From an uncultured Allomuricauda sp. (GTDB taxonomy: Bacteria > Bacteroidota > Bacteroidia > Flavobacteriales > Flavobacteriaceae): a stretch of 64,000 bases of DNA. Positions 5,599-12,207 of the stretch are shown in pieces. Numbering within the stretch: the stretch's first letter is position 1; the number at the start of each line of letters is the position of its first letter. Below the pieces are notes generated by a model. The model saw only the letters and a program-made list of their open reading frames with translations. It did not search any database and was not told where the DNA came from. The position numbers were made by a program, and so were the translations under genes. Location: positions 248,001 to 312,000 of the forward strand of contig NZ_CANMOO010000003.1 of NCBI RefSeq assembly GCF_947499585.1. The letters are read 5' to 3'.

Positions 5599-6687
5599 TT
5601 ATTTTTTCAAGGCGTTTATCAATGCTTCATTTGATTCTTGGTCGCCAATGGTGATTCTAACCTTTCCAGGTGCCCCAAACTGCGAGACAGGCCTTACCAT
5701 GACACCTTTTTCCATTAGTCTGTCGGCAAAATCAAATTCAGGAATAGGTGGGTCAACGATAAAGAAGTTCCCTTGAGTGGGCCAATACGTAATTCCGATT
5801 TTATCAAATTCACGTGTTAGATATGCCTTTCCATCATGAACGGTTTTTACCGTTTTTTCAATAAACAACTCATCGTTTAATGCACCAATGGCTGCCTCTA
5901 TTGAAGTGATTGGGAGTAAAAAAGGCTTGTAAATTTGCCTAATGTAATTTGCAATAACAGCTGTAGTGTAACAATACCCAATACGTTGTCCTGCCAATCC
6001 ATAGGTTTTTGAAAAACTATTAATGGCAATTACATTATTTCCAGATTTTACATATGGCAATGCAGTCACATAGTCTTCAGCATCTGCAAAATGTCGATAC
6101 ACTTCATCAAAAACTATGATGATGTTTTTAGGAATTCGGTTAAGAAAATCATCTAGTATTGCCTTTGGAATGTAGCTGCCGGTTGGGTTGTTGGGACTGG
6201 TTAAAAAGACGACTTTCGTTTTATCCGTGATTGCATTTAAAATCCCTCCCACATCCAAATCGTAATTTGGTTTTAATAGGGGGATATCAACTGGTTTGGC
6301 TCCATACCATCTTGAAAATACCGAGTAAGGCAAAAAACATGGATTAGAATAAATTACTTCATCACCTTCAGTAATAAATGCTCTAAGCAGCATATCAATG
6401 ATTTCTGAACCACTGTTGCCGCAAATAAATTGGTCTACAGTCAATTGATTGTCAAAATCGTTTACCAAGGCTTCTCTTAAACGAATATCTGTTTGATCGG
6501 GATACAGATTCACATTTTCAGCGGCCTTTTTCAGAGCTGAAATGGCTTTGGGAGAGGCTCCCAGCGGATTTTCGTTTGAGGAGAGTTTATATATTTTCTT
6601 GTCTGAGACAGGTATGTTTTTACCCCCCTTATATGCCTCTTTCGGCTCTAAATAGGGTTTGAAAATAGATTCTATTCCGTTGCTCAT
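5599..6687 (-). CDS. HisC-like class I/II aminotransferase, probably the aromatic aminotransferase of tyrosine breakdown
   Basis: The 362-residue protein is a PLP-dependent fold type I aminotransferase most like histidinol-phosphate aminotransferase (KLSSNENPLGASPKAI at the N-terminus). Conserved parts are SPNNPTGS, the Asp of VFDEVYRHF, and the PLP lysine in NSFSKTYGLAGQRIGY. It ends the operon hppD-hmgA-fahA-flavin reductase, and its start overlaps the preceding stop by one base. No his genes are near. The context therefore suggests it converts tyrosine (or phenylalanine) to the 4-hydroxyphenylpyruvate that HppD uses. That assignment is inferred from position; a true HisC cannot be excluded. 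Confidence 0.85.
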   Translation of the reverse strand: MSNGIESIFKPYLEPKEAYKGGKNIPVSDKKIYKLSSNENPLGASPKAISALKKAAENVNLYPDQTDIRLREALVNDFDNQLTVDQFICGNSGSEIIDMLLRAFITEGDEVIYSNPCFLPYSVFSRWYGAKPVDIPLLKPNYDLDVGGILNAITDKTKVVFLTSPNNPTGSYIPKAILDDFLNRIPKNIIIVFDEVYRHFADAEDYVTALPYVKSGNNVIAINSFSKTYGLAGQRIGYCYTTAVIANYIRQIYKPFLLPITSIEAAIGALNDELFIEKTVKTVHDGKAYLTREFDKIGITYWPTQGNFFIVDPPIPEFDFADRLMEKGVMVRPVSQFGAPGKVRITIGDQESNEALINALKK

Positions 6688-7598
6688 TAATCTAATTTTT
6701 CAGCATACATTAGTACAGCCAATGCTTTTTCTGTATCGTTGTCTTTCAGCATTTGTTGAGATAGCCAGTGCAATTCTTTTTTTAATTTTTCTGTATTTCC
6801 ATCCAATTTTTTAGATAGCATTTGAATCTCGTCATCCAAACCAATACGTTCTATTTCATCTGTAGTTGGGAGTTTTTCCAAATTCCCCAATCTGCCCAGA
6901 TTGTTACCGGTAAGAACAGTACTGTTTTGGATACTTTCTGGAAGTTGATCTACTCCAATACCCTTATTGCGGATGGGCTTTGGAATTTCAAATAGAGAAT
7001 TCCCACTAGCTCTTGTATACCAGCTTCCGCCCATTCTTCCAATTAAATCCAGTTTTAAAGGATCCAACTTTCCTTGTTCATCCATGTATTTTTCATTGAT
7101 ATGGATGAGCTCTACCCTTGCCAAGATTAAGTTCCCTGCTCCAGGGGTGTCTGCAAGTTCAATAACTTGTTCAACAGTACACTCAAAAGAAACTGGAGCC
7201 TCCGCAACACGGGGAGGTCCTACTTTTTCACTGGGGACTTGAGTTAATCCAGATTTAATGAATTCATTCACACCCTTTTCATAAGCTGTGCTGGACAATG
7301 ACATTTGTTCCACTATAGGATAGTCTACAATGTTGATGACCACCTCTGGCACTTCTTTTATATTCTGATGGGAATGTTTTAAAGAATTGTCCCTTCCGCT
7401 TCTTGATGGAGAGAATATCATTATTGGAGGGTTGGAACTAAATACATTAAAAAAACTAAAAGGACTTAAATTCACATTTCCCGCTTTGTCAATTGTACTT
7501 GCAAAGCAAATGGGCCTGGGAGCGACTGCCGAAAGTAAATAAGCATGCAGCTCTGGTTGAGGAATAGAAGTTGGGTCTATAGTTTTTATGGTGGACAT
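6687..7598 (-). CDS. Flavin reductase-like FMN-binding protein
   Basis: The 303-residue protein has the split-barrel flavin-binding domain in residues about 15-200 (LLSAVAPRPICFASTIDKAG, NLSPFSFFNVFSSNPPIM, then the SRSGRDN loop). A C-terminal helical segment of about 100 residues follows and looks specific to this subfamily. It lies between fahA (33-base gap) and the aminotransferase (one-base overlap), so it is part of the tyrosine catabolism transcript. Its reaction in that pathway is unknown to me; supplying reduced flavin or acting on an aromatic by-product are both possible. Confidence 0.85.
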   Translation of the reverse strand: MSTIKTIDPTSIPQPELHAYLLSAVAPRPICFASTIDKAGNVNLSPFSFFNVFSSNPPIMIFSPSRSGRDNSLKHSHQNIKEVPEVVINIVDYPIVEQMSLSSTAYEKGVNEFIKSGLTQVPSEKVGPPRVAEAPVSFECTVEQVIELADTPGAGNLILARVELIHINEKYMDEQGKLDPLKLDLIGRMGGSWYTRASGNSLFEIPKPIRNKGIGVDQLPESIQNSTVLTGNNLGRLGNLEKLPTTDEIERIGLDDEIQMLSKKLDGNTEKLKKELHWLSQQMLKDNDTEKALAVLMYAEKLD

Positions 7599-7631: not shown

Positions 7632-8852
7632 CTATTTTGCTGGAAGCACCTTTGCGGAAACTTCTCCAAAACCAACCTTAATACCATCTTTTTCGGCAGA
7701 CCCTCTCATAATTACGGTATCGCCATCATTTATAAACTTTCGTTCTGACCCGTCTTTCATTTTGATGGGTTTAGTGCCCATCCAGGCTAGTTCTAACATA
7801 GAGCCATAAGAATTTTCATCCTTTCCAGAAATGGTGCCTGAACCATAAAGATCCCCAACATTAATATTACAGCCATTTACTGTATGGTGAGCCAATTGCT
7901 GTGCCATGTTCCAATACATATATTTAAAATTGGAATGGCAAACGGTTTCCTCTTCACTGCCATCGGGAGCGATGCCAACTTCGAGCTTAATATCGTAGTT
8001 TTTAATTCCCTCATATTCTAAATAAGGAAGCACTTTTGGTTCTTGATCTGGCCCTGACACTCTAAAAGGCTCCAAAGCTTCCAAGGTCACTATCCAGGGT
8101 GAAATATGCGAGGCAAAATTCTTCGCCAAAAAAGGGCCTAATGGAACATACTCCCATTTTTGAATGTCACGTGCAGACCAATCATTTAGCAATACCATTC
8201 CAAAAATGTAGTCCTCAGCATCTTGGATTGAAATAGATTCCCCTACAGCTGTGCTTTTTCCAGTGATAAATCCCATTTCCAATTCAAAATCCAAACGTGC
8301 TGAAGCTTGAAAGACAGGAGTTGTAGCATCTTTTGGTAAAACCTGTCCCTTTGGCCTATGGATGGACTCTCCACTTACAATGATAGATGAGGCCCTACCG
8401 TGATAGCCCACCGGAATATGTTTCCAATTGGGCATCAGTGCATTTTTTGGGTCGCGGAACATGGTCCCTACATTGGTGGCGTGTTCTATACTGGAATAAA
8501 AATCTGTATAGTCCCCAATGGATACGGGCATGTGCATGCTTGCTTCAGATTGCATAACAAAAAGTTCTGGTTTGTCTGCCAAAGCTGAATCTTCCTGTTG
8601 TAACCAATGCTGAATATTTGTTCTAACCCTTTTGGTAATTGTTTTTCCTAAGGAGATAAAATCATTGAGCGTATCTTTTTCAAGTACGGCAGTATTAAAA
8701 TCAAAAACGTCTAATTCTGCAACAGCGGCTAAATCCAAAATATGTTCTCCAATGGCAACGCCAGCTCTAGGGCTTCTATCTGCTGTTGAAAAAATCCCAA
8801 ATGGAATGTTATGGATTGAGAAATCGGAGTTTTCTGGAATATTTATAATCAT
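7632..8852 (-). CDS. fahA: Fumarylacetoacetase
   Basis: This is the final enzyme of the homogentisate pathway, splitting fumarylacetoacetate to fumarate and acetoacetate. The 406-residue protein has the N-terminal SH3-like FAA domain and the catalytic domain, with DFYSSIEHATNVGTMFRD (catalytic His), the metal-binding acidic residues in DFELEMGFITG, and NDWSARDIQKWEYVPLGPF. Length and motifs match the eukaryotic-type enzyme. It follows hmgA with a 96-base gap that contains a long palindrome. The gene order supports a complete tyrosine-to-central-metabolism route. Confidence 0.96.
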   Translation of the reverse strand: MIINIPENSDFSIHNIPFGIFSTADRSPRAGVAIGEHILDLAAVAELDVFDFNTAVLEKDTLNDFISLGKTITKRVRTNIQHWLQQEDSALADKPELFVMQSEASMHMPVSIGDYTDFYSSIEHATNVGTMFRDPKNALMPNWKHIPVGYHGRASSIIVSGESIHRPKGQVLPKDATTPVFQASARLDFELEMGFITGKSTAVGESISIQDAEDYIFGMVLLNDWSARDIQKWEYVPLGPFLAKNFASHISPWIVTLEALEPFRVSGPDQEPKVLPYLEYEGIKNYDIKLEVGIAPDGSEEETVCHSNFKYMYWNMAQQLAHHTVNGCNINVGDLYGSGTISGKDENSYGSMLELAWMGTKPIKMKDGSERKFINDGDTVIMRGSAEKDGIKVGFGEVSAKVLPAK

Positions 8853-8948: not shown

Positions 8949-10106
8949 TTATTCCACCCAAGATTTGTAATACGTACCGTCATCAATCTTCAACGCATTT
9001 TCTGTGACCTGAAGTGGTTTGAACGTATCGATCATAACGGCTAATTCTTCAGTTTTGGTTTTGCCTATACTAGCCTCATATGTTCCTGGGTGTGGCCCGT
9101 GTGGAATTCCTGCGGGATGTAAGGAGATGTAACCAGGGCCAATGCCTGTTCTGCTCATAAAATCCCCATCCACATAGTACAATACTTCATCAGAATCTAT
9201 ATTGGAGTGATTATATGGTGCTGGAATTGCCTTTGGATGGTAATCGTACAATCTTGGGCAAAAAGAGCAAATTACGAAAGCACTGGTCTCAAAGGTTTGG
9301 TGCACTGGTGGTGGCTGGTGCACACGACCGGTAATGGGCTCAAAATTATGAATGGAAAATCCGTAGGGAAAATTGTATCCATCCCAACCCACAACGTCAA
9401 ACGGGTGCGATGCATACACAAGAGTATGTAACATACCCTGCTTCTTTATTTTCATTACAAACTCGCCTTTCTCATCATGGGTTTGCAAATCTTGAGGCAA
9501 TTTGTAGTCACGTTCGCAGAATGGGGAATGCTCTAACAATTGCCCAAACCAGTTTCTATATCGTTTTGGTGTATAGATGGGATGAAAGGATTCTGCAAAT
9601 AGTATGCGATTGTCTTCAGTGTCAAATTCAATTTGATAAATCATCCCTCGTGGAATGATCAGATAATCACCGTACTCAAAAGGAATATTACCCAAAAAAG
9701 TTTTTAATTTGCCAGTTCCTTTATGAATAAAAAGCATTTCATCAGCATCCGAGTTTTTGTAAAAGTACTCGGTCATTGATTTTTTGGGAGCTGCCAACCC
9801 AACATGCACATCGCTATTTACAAGCATGGGTTCTCGTGACTCCAAAAAGTCATCTTTGGGAGCAACATCAAAACCTATGAGTTTACGAGAGGCAATGTTC
9901 TTTTCAACAGCAATTTTTGGGCTTAGATCAACTGCTTTACCAATTGCAGAAACCTGAGTAGGCCTGTGCACATGATAAAGGAGGGAAGACATGCCGTCAA
10001 AACCGATTGTGCCAAATAATTGTTCATAGTACAGACTCCCATCTGGTTTAGTAAATTGGGTGTGTCTTTTCTGCGGAATCTTTCCGAGTTTATGATAGAT
10101 TGGCAT
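8949..10106 (-). CDS. hmgA: Homogentisate 1,2-dioxygenase
   Basis: This non-haem iron enzyme opens the homogentisate ring to maleylacetoacetate. The 385-residue protein has the cupin-type architecture of HmgA, with the C-terminal iron-ligand region YHPKAIPAPYNHSNIDSDEVL and HPAGIPHGPHPGTYEASIG supplying the conserved His and Glu residues. It starts 15 bases after the hppD stop, so the two are co-transcribed. No separate maleylacetoacetate isomerase gene is visible in the operon. Confidence 0.95.
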   Translation of the reverse strand: MPIYHKLGKIPQKRHTQFTKPDGSLYYEQLFGTIGFDGMSSLLYHVHRPTQVSAIGKAVDLSPKIAVEKNIASRKLIGFDVAPKDDFLESREPMLVNSDVHVGLAAPKKSMTEYFYKNSDADEMLFIHKGTGKLKTFLGNIPFEYGDYLIIPRGMIYQIEFDTEDNRILFAESFHPIYTPKRYRNWFGQLLEHSPFCERDYKLPQDLQTHDEKGEFVMKIKKQGMLHTLVYASHPFDVVGWDGYNFPYGFSIHNFEPITGRVHQPPPVHQTFETSAFVICSFCPRLYDYHPKAIPAPYNHSNIDSDEVLYYVDGDFMSRTGIGPGYISLHPAGIPHGPHPGTYEASIGKTKTEELAVMIDTFKPLQVTENALKIDDGTYYKSWVE

Positions 10107-10121
10107 AACTGAAAGTTTTAA

Positions 10122-11255
10122 TTAGTGCAAAGTTCCTCTAAGTTCCTGTTCTCTCTCAATAGCTTCAAACAGTGCTTTAAAGTTACCTTTTCCAAATGAT
10201 TGTGCGCCTTTTCTTTGAATGATTTCAAAAAACATGGTTGGTCTTGGCTCTACAGGGCGGGTAAAGATTTGCAATAAATAGCCTTCGTCATCACGATCAA
10301 CCAGAATACCCAGTTCTTTTAAAGGAGCAATATCTTCATCAATTTCACCTACACGGTCCAGGACGGCATCATAATAAGTGTCAGGTACTTTTAGAAACTC
10401 AACACCTCTGCTTTTAAGTTGCCTCACTGTCGAGATAACGTCATCAGTGGAAACTGCTATATGTTGCACACCTTCACCTTCATAAAAATCAAGGTATTCT
10501 TCTACTTGTGATTTTTTCTTGCCGGCTGCGGGTTCGTTTATTGGGAATTTAATACGCCCGTTACCATTACTCATCACTTTACTCATAAGGGCGGTGAAAT
10601 CGGTAGAGATATCTTTATCATCAAAAGACAGTATTTGAGTGAAACCCATAACATTTTCATAGAAGTTCACCCACTCGTTCATTCTATTCCATCCAACATT
10701 GCCTACCATGTGATCTACAAACTTTAACCCAACAGGAGATGGATTGTAATCTGGAGTTTCCCATTTTCTGAACCCGGGCATAAAAGTGCCGTTATAATCT
10801 TTTCTTTCTACAAAAATATGTACGGTCTCGCCATAGGTATAAATACCAGAGCGAACAATTTTTCCTGTTTTATCTTCTTCAACTTTAGGTTCCATGTAGG
10901 ATTTTGCACCTCGCTCCATAGCCGTGTTGTATGCATAGGTCGCATCATCTACCCACAGTGCCACAACTTTAACACCATCACCATGTTGATCAATATGGCG
11001 ACCAATGTCCGTACCACTTTTTAATGGAGAGGTCAGTACAAGTCTTATTTTGTCTTGAACGACCACATAACTTTCCCTATCTTTTAAGCTAGTTTCCAAT
11101 CCTGCATAAGCTAAAGATTGAAACCCAAAAGCAGTCTTATAAAAGTGCGCCGCTTGCTTTGAATTGCTTACATAAAGTTCTAAATAATCGGTGCCATTTA
11201 TAGGCATAAAATCTTTTGCCGTATCATGCAATTTTGGTAAAGTGGAAGTGGACAT
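10122..11255 (-). CDS. hppD: 4-Hydroxyphenylpyruvate dioxygenase
   Basis: HppD makes homogentisate from 4-hydroxyphenylpyruvate. The 377-residue protein contains two vicinal-oxygen-chelate halves. The three iron ligands are visible as the His in VDHMVGNVGWN, the His in VQHIAVSTDDV and the Glu in PTMFFEIIQRKG. It is the first gene of the catabolic operon and faces a divergent MarR gene across 152 bases that hold candidate operators. Length and motifs are typical. Confidence 0.96.
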   Translation of the reverse strand: MSTSTLPKLHDTAKDFMPINGTDYLELYVSNSKQAAHFYKTAFGFQSLAYAGLETSLKDRESYVVVQDKIRLVLTSPLKSGTDIGRHIDQHGDGVKVVALWVDDATYAYNTAMERGAKSYMEPKVEEDKTGKIVRSGIYTYGETVHIFVERKDYNGTFMPGFRKWETPDYNPSPVGLKFVDHMVGNVGWNRMNEWVNFYENVMGFTQILSFDDKDISTDFTALMSKVMSNGNGRIKFPINEPAAGKKKSQVEEYLDFYEGEGVQHIAVSTDDVISTVRQLKSRGVEFLKVPDTYYDAVLDRVGEIDEDIAPLKELGILVDRDDEGYLLQIFTRPVEPRPTMFFEIIQRKGAQSFGKGNFKALFEAIEREQELRGTLH

Positions 11256-11290
11256 AACAAATATATTTTAAGATGTAATTGAAATTATTG

Positions 11291-11327
11291 TTGTTGATGC
11301 AACAAAAATAGTAATTTTGAAATTACT
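11291..11327. promoter_or_regulatory. Divergent hppD / marR promoter region with two palindromes (candidate MarR operators)
   Basis: An 18-base palindrome AGTAATTTTGAAATTACT (8-bp arms, 2-base centre) lies at 11310-11327, and a second one, TTGTTGATGCAACAA (6-bp arms, 3-base centre), at 11291-11305. The first contains a plus-strand -7 box TAATTTTG (11312-11319) suited to the marR gene, with TTG at 11291-11293 as possible -33. A minus-strand -7-like box TATTTTTG (11303-11310) suited to hppD abuts it. MarR dimers bind palindromes of this size, so repression of both genes from this site is a reasonable inference. Confidence 0.6.
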
Positions 11328-11365
11328 TTAGTGTTATTCAGGGCAAATAATTGTTAAAAACAACG

Positions 11366-11393
11366 ATCATTTCGAACGGAGTGGGGAAATGAT
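11366..11393. repeat. Small inverted repeat upstream of marR
   Basis: ATCATTTC (11366-11373) and GAAATGAT (11386-11393) form 8-bp perfect arms around a 12-base loop, ending 14 bases before the marR start. It would lie in the marR leader. It may be a short dispersed repeat rather than a regulatory site; there is only one copy in the window. Confidence 0.5.
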
Positions 11394-11407
11394 AAAGAAG
11401 GTGATAT

Positions 11408-11854
11408 ATGCTTCATCAAATAGACGAAATATCAGGTATTGGATTGCATTTGGATTTAGTATTACGAAAAGTGCAGGATGCTTATCTTAGAAAGTTTAAG
11501 GAATTGGGTGTTGAGCTCACAATTGAACAATGGGTAATCCTCTATCGTATTTATCAGTTAGGAGAAGATGTATCTCAATCTGATATTGTAAAGTCCAATT
11601 TTAGAAACAGAGCCACTACCTCTAGGGTTATTGGTGGTCTTGAACGAAAAGGTTGGATTACCAAGACTCGTTTTGAAGGTGATTTAAAACGATTTAAATT
11701 AGAATTAACCCAAATAGGCCAAGATATTATCGCCAAAGTTGAGCCCTATGCCCATGTTTTAAGAAAACAGGCTATAAAAGGCCTGGATAATGATGAGTTT
11801 GAAACTTTTTTAAAGGTTTTGGATAAGATTGGGGATAATTATGAAAATTTCTGA
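11408..11854 (+). CDS. MarR-family transcriptional regulator
   Basis: The 148-residue protein is a winged-helix MarR regulator. Features are the dimerisation helix at the N-terminus, LTIEQWVILYRIYQ, the recognition-helix region SNFRNRATTSRVIGGLERKGWI, and the wing GDLKRFKLELTQIG. It is divergent from hppD with two palindromes between them, so it most likely controls the tyrosine catabolism operon and itself, possibly in response to an aromatic intermediate. The ligand is unknown. Confidence 0.9.
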   Translation: MLHQIDEISGIGLHLDLVLRKVQDAYLRKFKELGVELTIEQWVILYRIYQLGEDVSQSDIVKSNFRNRATTSRVIGGLERKGWITKTRFEGDLKRFKLELTQIGQDIIAKVEPYAHVLRKQAIKGLDNDEFETFLKVLDKIGDNYENF

Positions 11855-11994
11855 TTCTTATCAGACGCTAGGTTTTTTAATTCCCAAAAGGGAATAGTAG
11901 GGATAAGATAGCATAGAAATTGGAAAAACATGTTGTTTTGAAACGATATTAATTGGTTGAATTTTGCTTAGTATTAATTGAAAAATATTTCAAT

Positions 11995-12159
11995 ATGAAA
12001 AAGTTAAAGCATTACCCAAATGTTTGGCAAGCTTCACCGTTTTCAATGGAAATGTTCGCGCATTTTGAGCAGGACGCGCGTCTTAGGAATCATGAAGCAG
12101 AAATAGAACAACAAAAAACTAAAAAGGAAAGTAAATTTAAATTGGCTTTTGGCTGGTAA
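11995..12159 (+). CDS. Small conserved hypothetical protein (54 aa)
   Basis: The ATG at 11995 gives a 54-residue basic and charged protein beginning MKKLKHYPNVWQASPFSMEM and ending FKLAFGW. The frame is open further upstream to 11953, but that extension has no codon bias or motif worth keeping. A strong terminator follows 24 bases after the stop, which supports a real transcript. I do not recognise a function. Confidence 0.6.
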   Translation: MKKLKHYPNVWQASPFSMEMFAHFEQDARLRNHEAEIEQQKTKKESKFKLAFGW

Positions 12160-12182
12160 ACAAAAACGAACAGTATTGTAAG

Positions 12183-12207
12183 AAAAGGCACCCATTGGGT
12201 GCCTTTT
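12183..12207. terminator. Bidirectional rho-independent terminator
   Basis: An 11-bp perfect stem (AAAAGGCACCC, loop ATT, GGGTGCCTTTT) sits between the small plus-strand gene and the convergent esterase gene. Its A-rich and T-rich flanks allow termination in both directions. Confidence 0.85.

Follow-up and report, generated by a model that had tools for sequence, protein, structure and literature searches.

The window, a 64,000-nucleotide stretch of the genome of an uncultured Allomuricauda sp., contains a gene for 4-hydroxyphenylpyruvate dioxygenase, hppD (positions 10122 to 11255, minus strand; TIGR01263, 444.8 bits against a cutoff of 277), and, divergent from it across a gap of 152 bases, marR (11408 to 11854, plus strand), which encodes a MarR family winged helix regulator of 148 amino acids (PF01047, 45.2 bits; cutoff, 24.6). 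Behind hppD and on the same strand follow genes for a divergent, hmgA-like homogentisate dioxygenase (8949 to 10106; above the cutoffs of PF20510 and PF04209 and far under that of TIGR01015, with 72.5 versus 510.75 bits), fumarylacetoacetase (7632 to 8852; TIGR01266, 583.7 bits; cutoff, 375.3), a flavin-reductase-like protein (6687 to 7598; PF01613, 63 bits; cutoff, 27), and a HisC-related aminotransferase (5599 to 6687; PF00155, 216.6 bits). The flavin-reductase-like gene, being co-directional with the others and separated by short gaps, probably belongs to the same operon, and the aminotransferase, whose substrate is a guess, may be the one that acts on tyrosine in this pathway. On the other side, marR is followed by a small open reading frame of about 54 codons (11996 to 12205) and then, as seen by eye, by a hairpin with a run of T (AAGGCACCCATTGGGTGCCTTTT).

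Bacteroidota sigma-A promoters carry a TTG element at about -33. Their -7 box, TAnnTTTG, was found in the window for both genes, as TATTTTTG for hppD (11303 to 11310, minus strand) and as TAATTTTG for marR (11312 to 11319, plus strand). A sigma-70 scan of positions 10800 to 12200 gave no site in the gap; the TTGACA/TATAAT consensus on which such a scan relies does not describe Bacteroidota promoters. The original prediction had located two palindromes in the gap, spaced by 4 bases, and both turned out to be present at those positions, one being an 18-base sequence at 11310 to 11327, AGTAATTT-TG-AAATTACT, with perfect 8-base arms, a 2-base centre, and 8 of 9 pairs, and the other TTGTTG-ATG-CAACAA at 11291 to 11305. 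It was also right in placing the marR -7 box inside the 18-base palindrome and in having the hppD -7 box touch it, the two sharing a single base.

We then compared the gap among the genomes of the genus; most named relatives of the window's genome belong to Flagellimonas, Allomuricauda, or Muricauda, in the Flavobacteriaceae. Of 71 genus genomes with a marR match, 70 were used, in all of which marR and hppD are divergent, and G060, with its weak match, was left out. The 18-base palindrome had been expected to persist wherever the gene pair is kept, and it did not. At least 7 of 9 pairs were found at the same offset in only 5 of the 70 genomes, all of them from the window's close clade and with a marR at least 90% identical to that of the window, while the remaining 65 had at most 6 of 9. 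Allowing the best of seven offsets gave 8 of 70, the extra three being L154, L156, and L179, the last of which had been anchored in this comparison at another, one-mismatch place. Of 5,000 dinucleotide shuffles of the 152-base gap, 5.6% yielded an 18-mer in which 8 or all 9 of the pairs formed (P = 0.056), arms of at least 8 bases with a centre of at most 4 bases were present in 3.65% of 2,000 shuffles, and some 18-mer of at least 8 of 9 pairs lay outside the operator described below in 9 of the 70 gaps, the window's included. Taken by itself, the 18-base palindrome does not stand out. Searched genome-wide with up to 3 mismatches, its pattern showed no excess (96 places versus 110 for the reversed control), the sole mismatch-free copy in the genome being that at 11310 to 11327. 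The columns of its right arm were 44 to 73% conserved, and what was conserved, in its left part, was ATTTT from the marR -7 box (columns 26 to 30 counted from 11288, at 80 to 99%). We judged the palindrome to be probably a clade-limited by-product of this box; conservation, the shuffles, and the genome-wide control all led us to set it aside as a candidate operator.

The conserved element was the second palindrome, so that footprinting reversed a choice based on palindrome length. It is contained in TTGTTGTTGATGCAACAA (TTGTTG-N6-CAACAA, 11288 to 11305), the proposed MarR operator, which was exact in 69 of the 70 gaps and had one mismatch in the remaining one; at the homologous site of L179, A replaces the first T. 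Counted from 11288, column 0 was conserved at 99%, columns 1 to 5, 12 to 19, 21, and 22 at 100%, and column 20 at 94%. The six columns of the centre were conserved at 40 to 64%, and the flanks varied from 37% to 97%. The arms were fixed although the identity of marR drops to 63% within the genus. The CAACAA arm runs into the hppD -7 box, with CAAAnnTA found right at that end of the operator in all 70 gaps. Conservation was also seen in a run of T at -20 to -17 (76 to 96%) and in two A at +58 and +59 (96 to 97%). A further inverted repeat, ACGAAA-N4-TTTCGT, lies 36 to 37 bases past the operator start, downstream of the marR -7 box; it matched at 11 or more of its 12 bases in 21 of the 70 gaps and at 7 or fewer in 23, and it was not seen in the close clade of the window.

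The co-occurrence of the site and the regulator was determined in a sample of 120 genomes of the family (the window's own included), of which 97 had hppD and 4 had this MarR, absence meaning that no match reached an E of 1e-20. The core of the operator, GTTG-N6-CAAC, was found no more than 300 bases upstream of hppD in all 4 genomes with MarR, the window's among them, and in none of the 86 tested out of the 93 hppD-bearing genomes without it; one of these 86 upstream regions, that of L197, is shortened by a contig end. Among 397 family genomes, MarR was present in 16, 3 of them of the genus, and all of the other 13 had the core by hppD or marR, in 12 cases as TGTTG-N6-CAACA and in G220 as GTTGCAAATGCAAC. 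The site of G228 is the perfect form TTGTTGCATATGCAACAA. In G145 and G355, a gene for an aminotransferase (an about 55% identical homologue of that at 5599 to 6687) stands between marR and hppD, and each genome has two sites, the first between marR and the aminotransferase gene and the second ahead of hppD.

A search of 395 genomes of the phylum found a MarR homologue (E up to 1e-18, 29 to 45% identical) in 8 from other families, and in 6 of these hppD lay within about 2 kb of it. The core was upstream of hppD in 5 of the 8 (as TAGTTGTTGTAACAACTA and similar forms in four, and twice in G704). G612 and G632 had one-mismatch forms of the core at hppD, as read by eye, and at hppD of G788 neither the core nor a one-mismatch form was found. 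G632 and G788 have their MarR homologue away from hppD; in the latter, two copies of GTTG-N6-CAAC lie beside its own marR homologue (L153, 1380 to 1510), and hppD is on another contig. The three distant MarR homologues that were scanned all exceeded the PF01047 cutoff. Within the family, a recognition region resembling FRNRATTSR was accompanied by halves resembling TTGTTGCAT, and in one distant family, a region resembling FKDKPTVSR was accompanied by halves resembling TAGTTGTTA.

A genus-wide search for the exact site in 70 genomes, a set slightly unlike the 70 of the gap comparison, gave 116 sites, and the reversed control gave 58; the surplus, 0.83 per genome, is in keeping with a single site in each. 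G000 has two exact copies of TTGTTG-N6-CAACAA, one in the hppD-marR gap of the window and one in 23S rRNA. A scan of the same genome for a wider regulon, allowing up to 2 mismatches, was too noisy to be of use (539 versus 404 control places).

As the -7 box of Bacteroidota is placed at -12 to -5 (PMC9723704), hppD transcription is predicted to start near 11298, inside the operator, which spans about -7 to +11 relative to this start; no TTG at -33 of hppD was present in the window sequence. On the marR side, the TTG of the left operator arm (11291 to 11293, plus strand) falls at -33 to -31, since the marR start is predicted near 11324. TAnnTTTG, taken as the marR box, was found within 22 bases past the operator in 44 of the 70 gaps, and this strict form was missing there in 26. 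In 42 of the 70 genomes, TAnnTTTG was also found no more than 45 bases from the start codon of marR, so marR need not rely everywhere on the promoter covered by the operator. This second box lies mostly 24 to 26 bases before marR and mostly away from the operator, and it is absent in the window.

MarR family regulators commonly bind as dimers to a palindrome near their own divergent promoter, and in the window a candidate palindromic site was found at the divergent promoter of marR. Our best reading of the locus is that MarR would act locally, through TTGTTG-N6-CAACAA, as a repressor of homogentisate-pathway genes and probably of its own gene. We consider it quite probable, judging from sequence comparison, that a dimer of the MarR encoded at 11408 to 11854 occupies 11288 to 11305 and represses both hppD and marR until a pathway intermediate releases it. 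The bound protein would cover the transcription start of hppD and the end of its -7 box and would hide the TTG predicted to act as the -33 element of marR. Both directions would stay repressed until 4-hydroxyphenylpyruvate, homogentisate, or a relative frees MarR, and the genes downstream of hppD would be regulated together with it. The architecture originally proposed, one MarR dimer at one site controlling hppD and marR, fits this evidence well, whereas the site chosen for it does not, the conserved palindrome being the other one.

That the dimer binds the 18-base palindrome instead now seems highly improbable. Its perfect 8-base arms and its contacts with the two -7 boxes, together with an equally good copy in G016 and copies one pair short of it in G013, G064, and G040, would favour such binding; against it are the loss of pairing in 65 of the 70 genomes that keep the gene pair, the share of shuffles that match it, and the missing genome-wide excess. 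Equally hard to credit is a conserved block that is promoter sequence only, made up of the hppD -7 box and the initially transcribed region, with no repressor involved. The -7 box does belong to the invariant block, but the block is absent from all 86 tested hppD upstream regions of genomes without MarR, and its symmetric arms are fixed around a variable 6-base centre.

The role of the site could differ in two further ways. Some MarR proteins activate, and MarR at 11288 to 11305 might activate hppD or act on one promoter only, to which the second possible marR promoter in 42 of the 70 genomes lends some weight; we hold this unlikely, and steric repression of hppD fits better because the operator lies over the predicted start. 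It is also quite unlikely that another regulator binds TTGTTG-N6-CAACAA while the neighbouring MarR acts elsewhere. A second regulator is hinted at by ACGAAA-N4-TTTCGT, which some genomes of the genus carry, but TTGTTG-N6-CAACAA tracks MarR (4 of 4 genomes with it versus 0 of 86 without), and its excess is about one per genome. G060, whose marR match is weak, yet whose hppD upstream region carries the site, has an assembly that is 71% complete.

Returning to the operator as the proposed target of MarR, we found that each of its halves in the 70 gaps is TTGTTGCAT or a weaker form of it. CAT ends exactly one half in 61 gaps, both halves in none, and neither in 9, and the better half is oriented toward the hppD -7 box in 43 gaps, in the opposite direction in 26, and tied in 1. 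On the marR gene tree, the orientation of the centre needed 4 changes, compared with a mean of 22 after shuffling. In the close pair L020 and L025, the centres (CACCAA and TTGGTG) differ at all 6 bases, and the gap outside the centre differs by two bases and by one in length. One inversion is a better explanation here than six substitutions, since the centres are exact reverse complements in nearly identical flanks; the difference may also be due to an assembly fault. Elsewhere, orientation may have changed by stepwise substitution, since intermediate centres such as CTAATG, CTTATG, and CATATA occur. Template switching between inverted repeats inverts spacers, and in the yeast cases described in PMC8604942 it did so only with arms of over 9 bases, compared with 6 to 8 bases for the operator arms here.

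We tentatively suggest, with somewhat less than even confidence, that MarR and GTTG-N6-CAAC constitute an old regulator of tyrosine breakdown in Bacteroidota, in which the half-site and the recognition region changed together and the centre was inverted more than once within the genus by template switching between the arms. A symmetric dimer would hardly sense such an inversion, and the flips would thus be natural evidence of dimer binding. The locus serves as an example of how an operator can evolve, with constant arms and a spacer that flips.

Among the papers listed in literature searches, none dealt in its title or the beginning of its abstract with the MarR-hppD pair of Bacteroidota or with its motif. 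What is proposed here for tyrosine catabolism in Bacteroidota is an exact operator-regulator pair, open to testing. None of the six NCBIfam matches to the marR product reaches its cutoff, among them the HpaR equivalog TIGR02337 (33.9 versus 121.2 bits) and the SlyA equivalog NF002926 (53.3 versus 120 bits). SlyA-type MarR proteins (3q5f, 3deu, and 4aih) are among the closest solved chains (best phmmer E, 3.5e-12). HpaR is likewise a member of the MarR family and, by its NCBIfam name, regulates an aromatic (homoprotocatechuate) catabolic operon. HmgR of Pseudomonas putida, as described in PMC5343134, represses homogentisate genes, with homogentisate as the anti-repressor, and differs in belonging to another protein family, IclR. 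The kind of regulator proposed here is already known from the same source, where HmgS, a protein of the MarR family, is predicted to regulate tyrosine degradation in Alteromonadales and their relatives (PMC5343134). The two are alike in family, in serving the homogentisate pathway, in having a small regulon, and in having been predicted by comparative genomics, whereas HmgS is from Proteobacteria and is predicted to act on hmgAB (PMC5343134).
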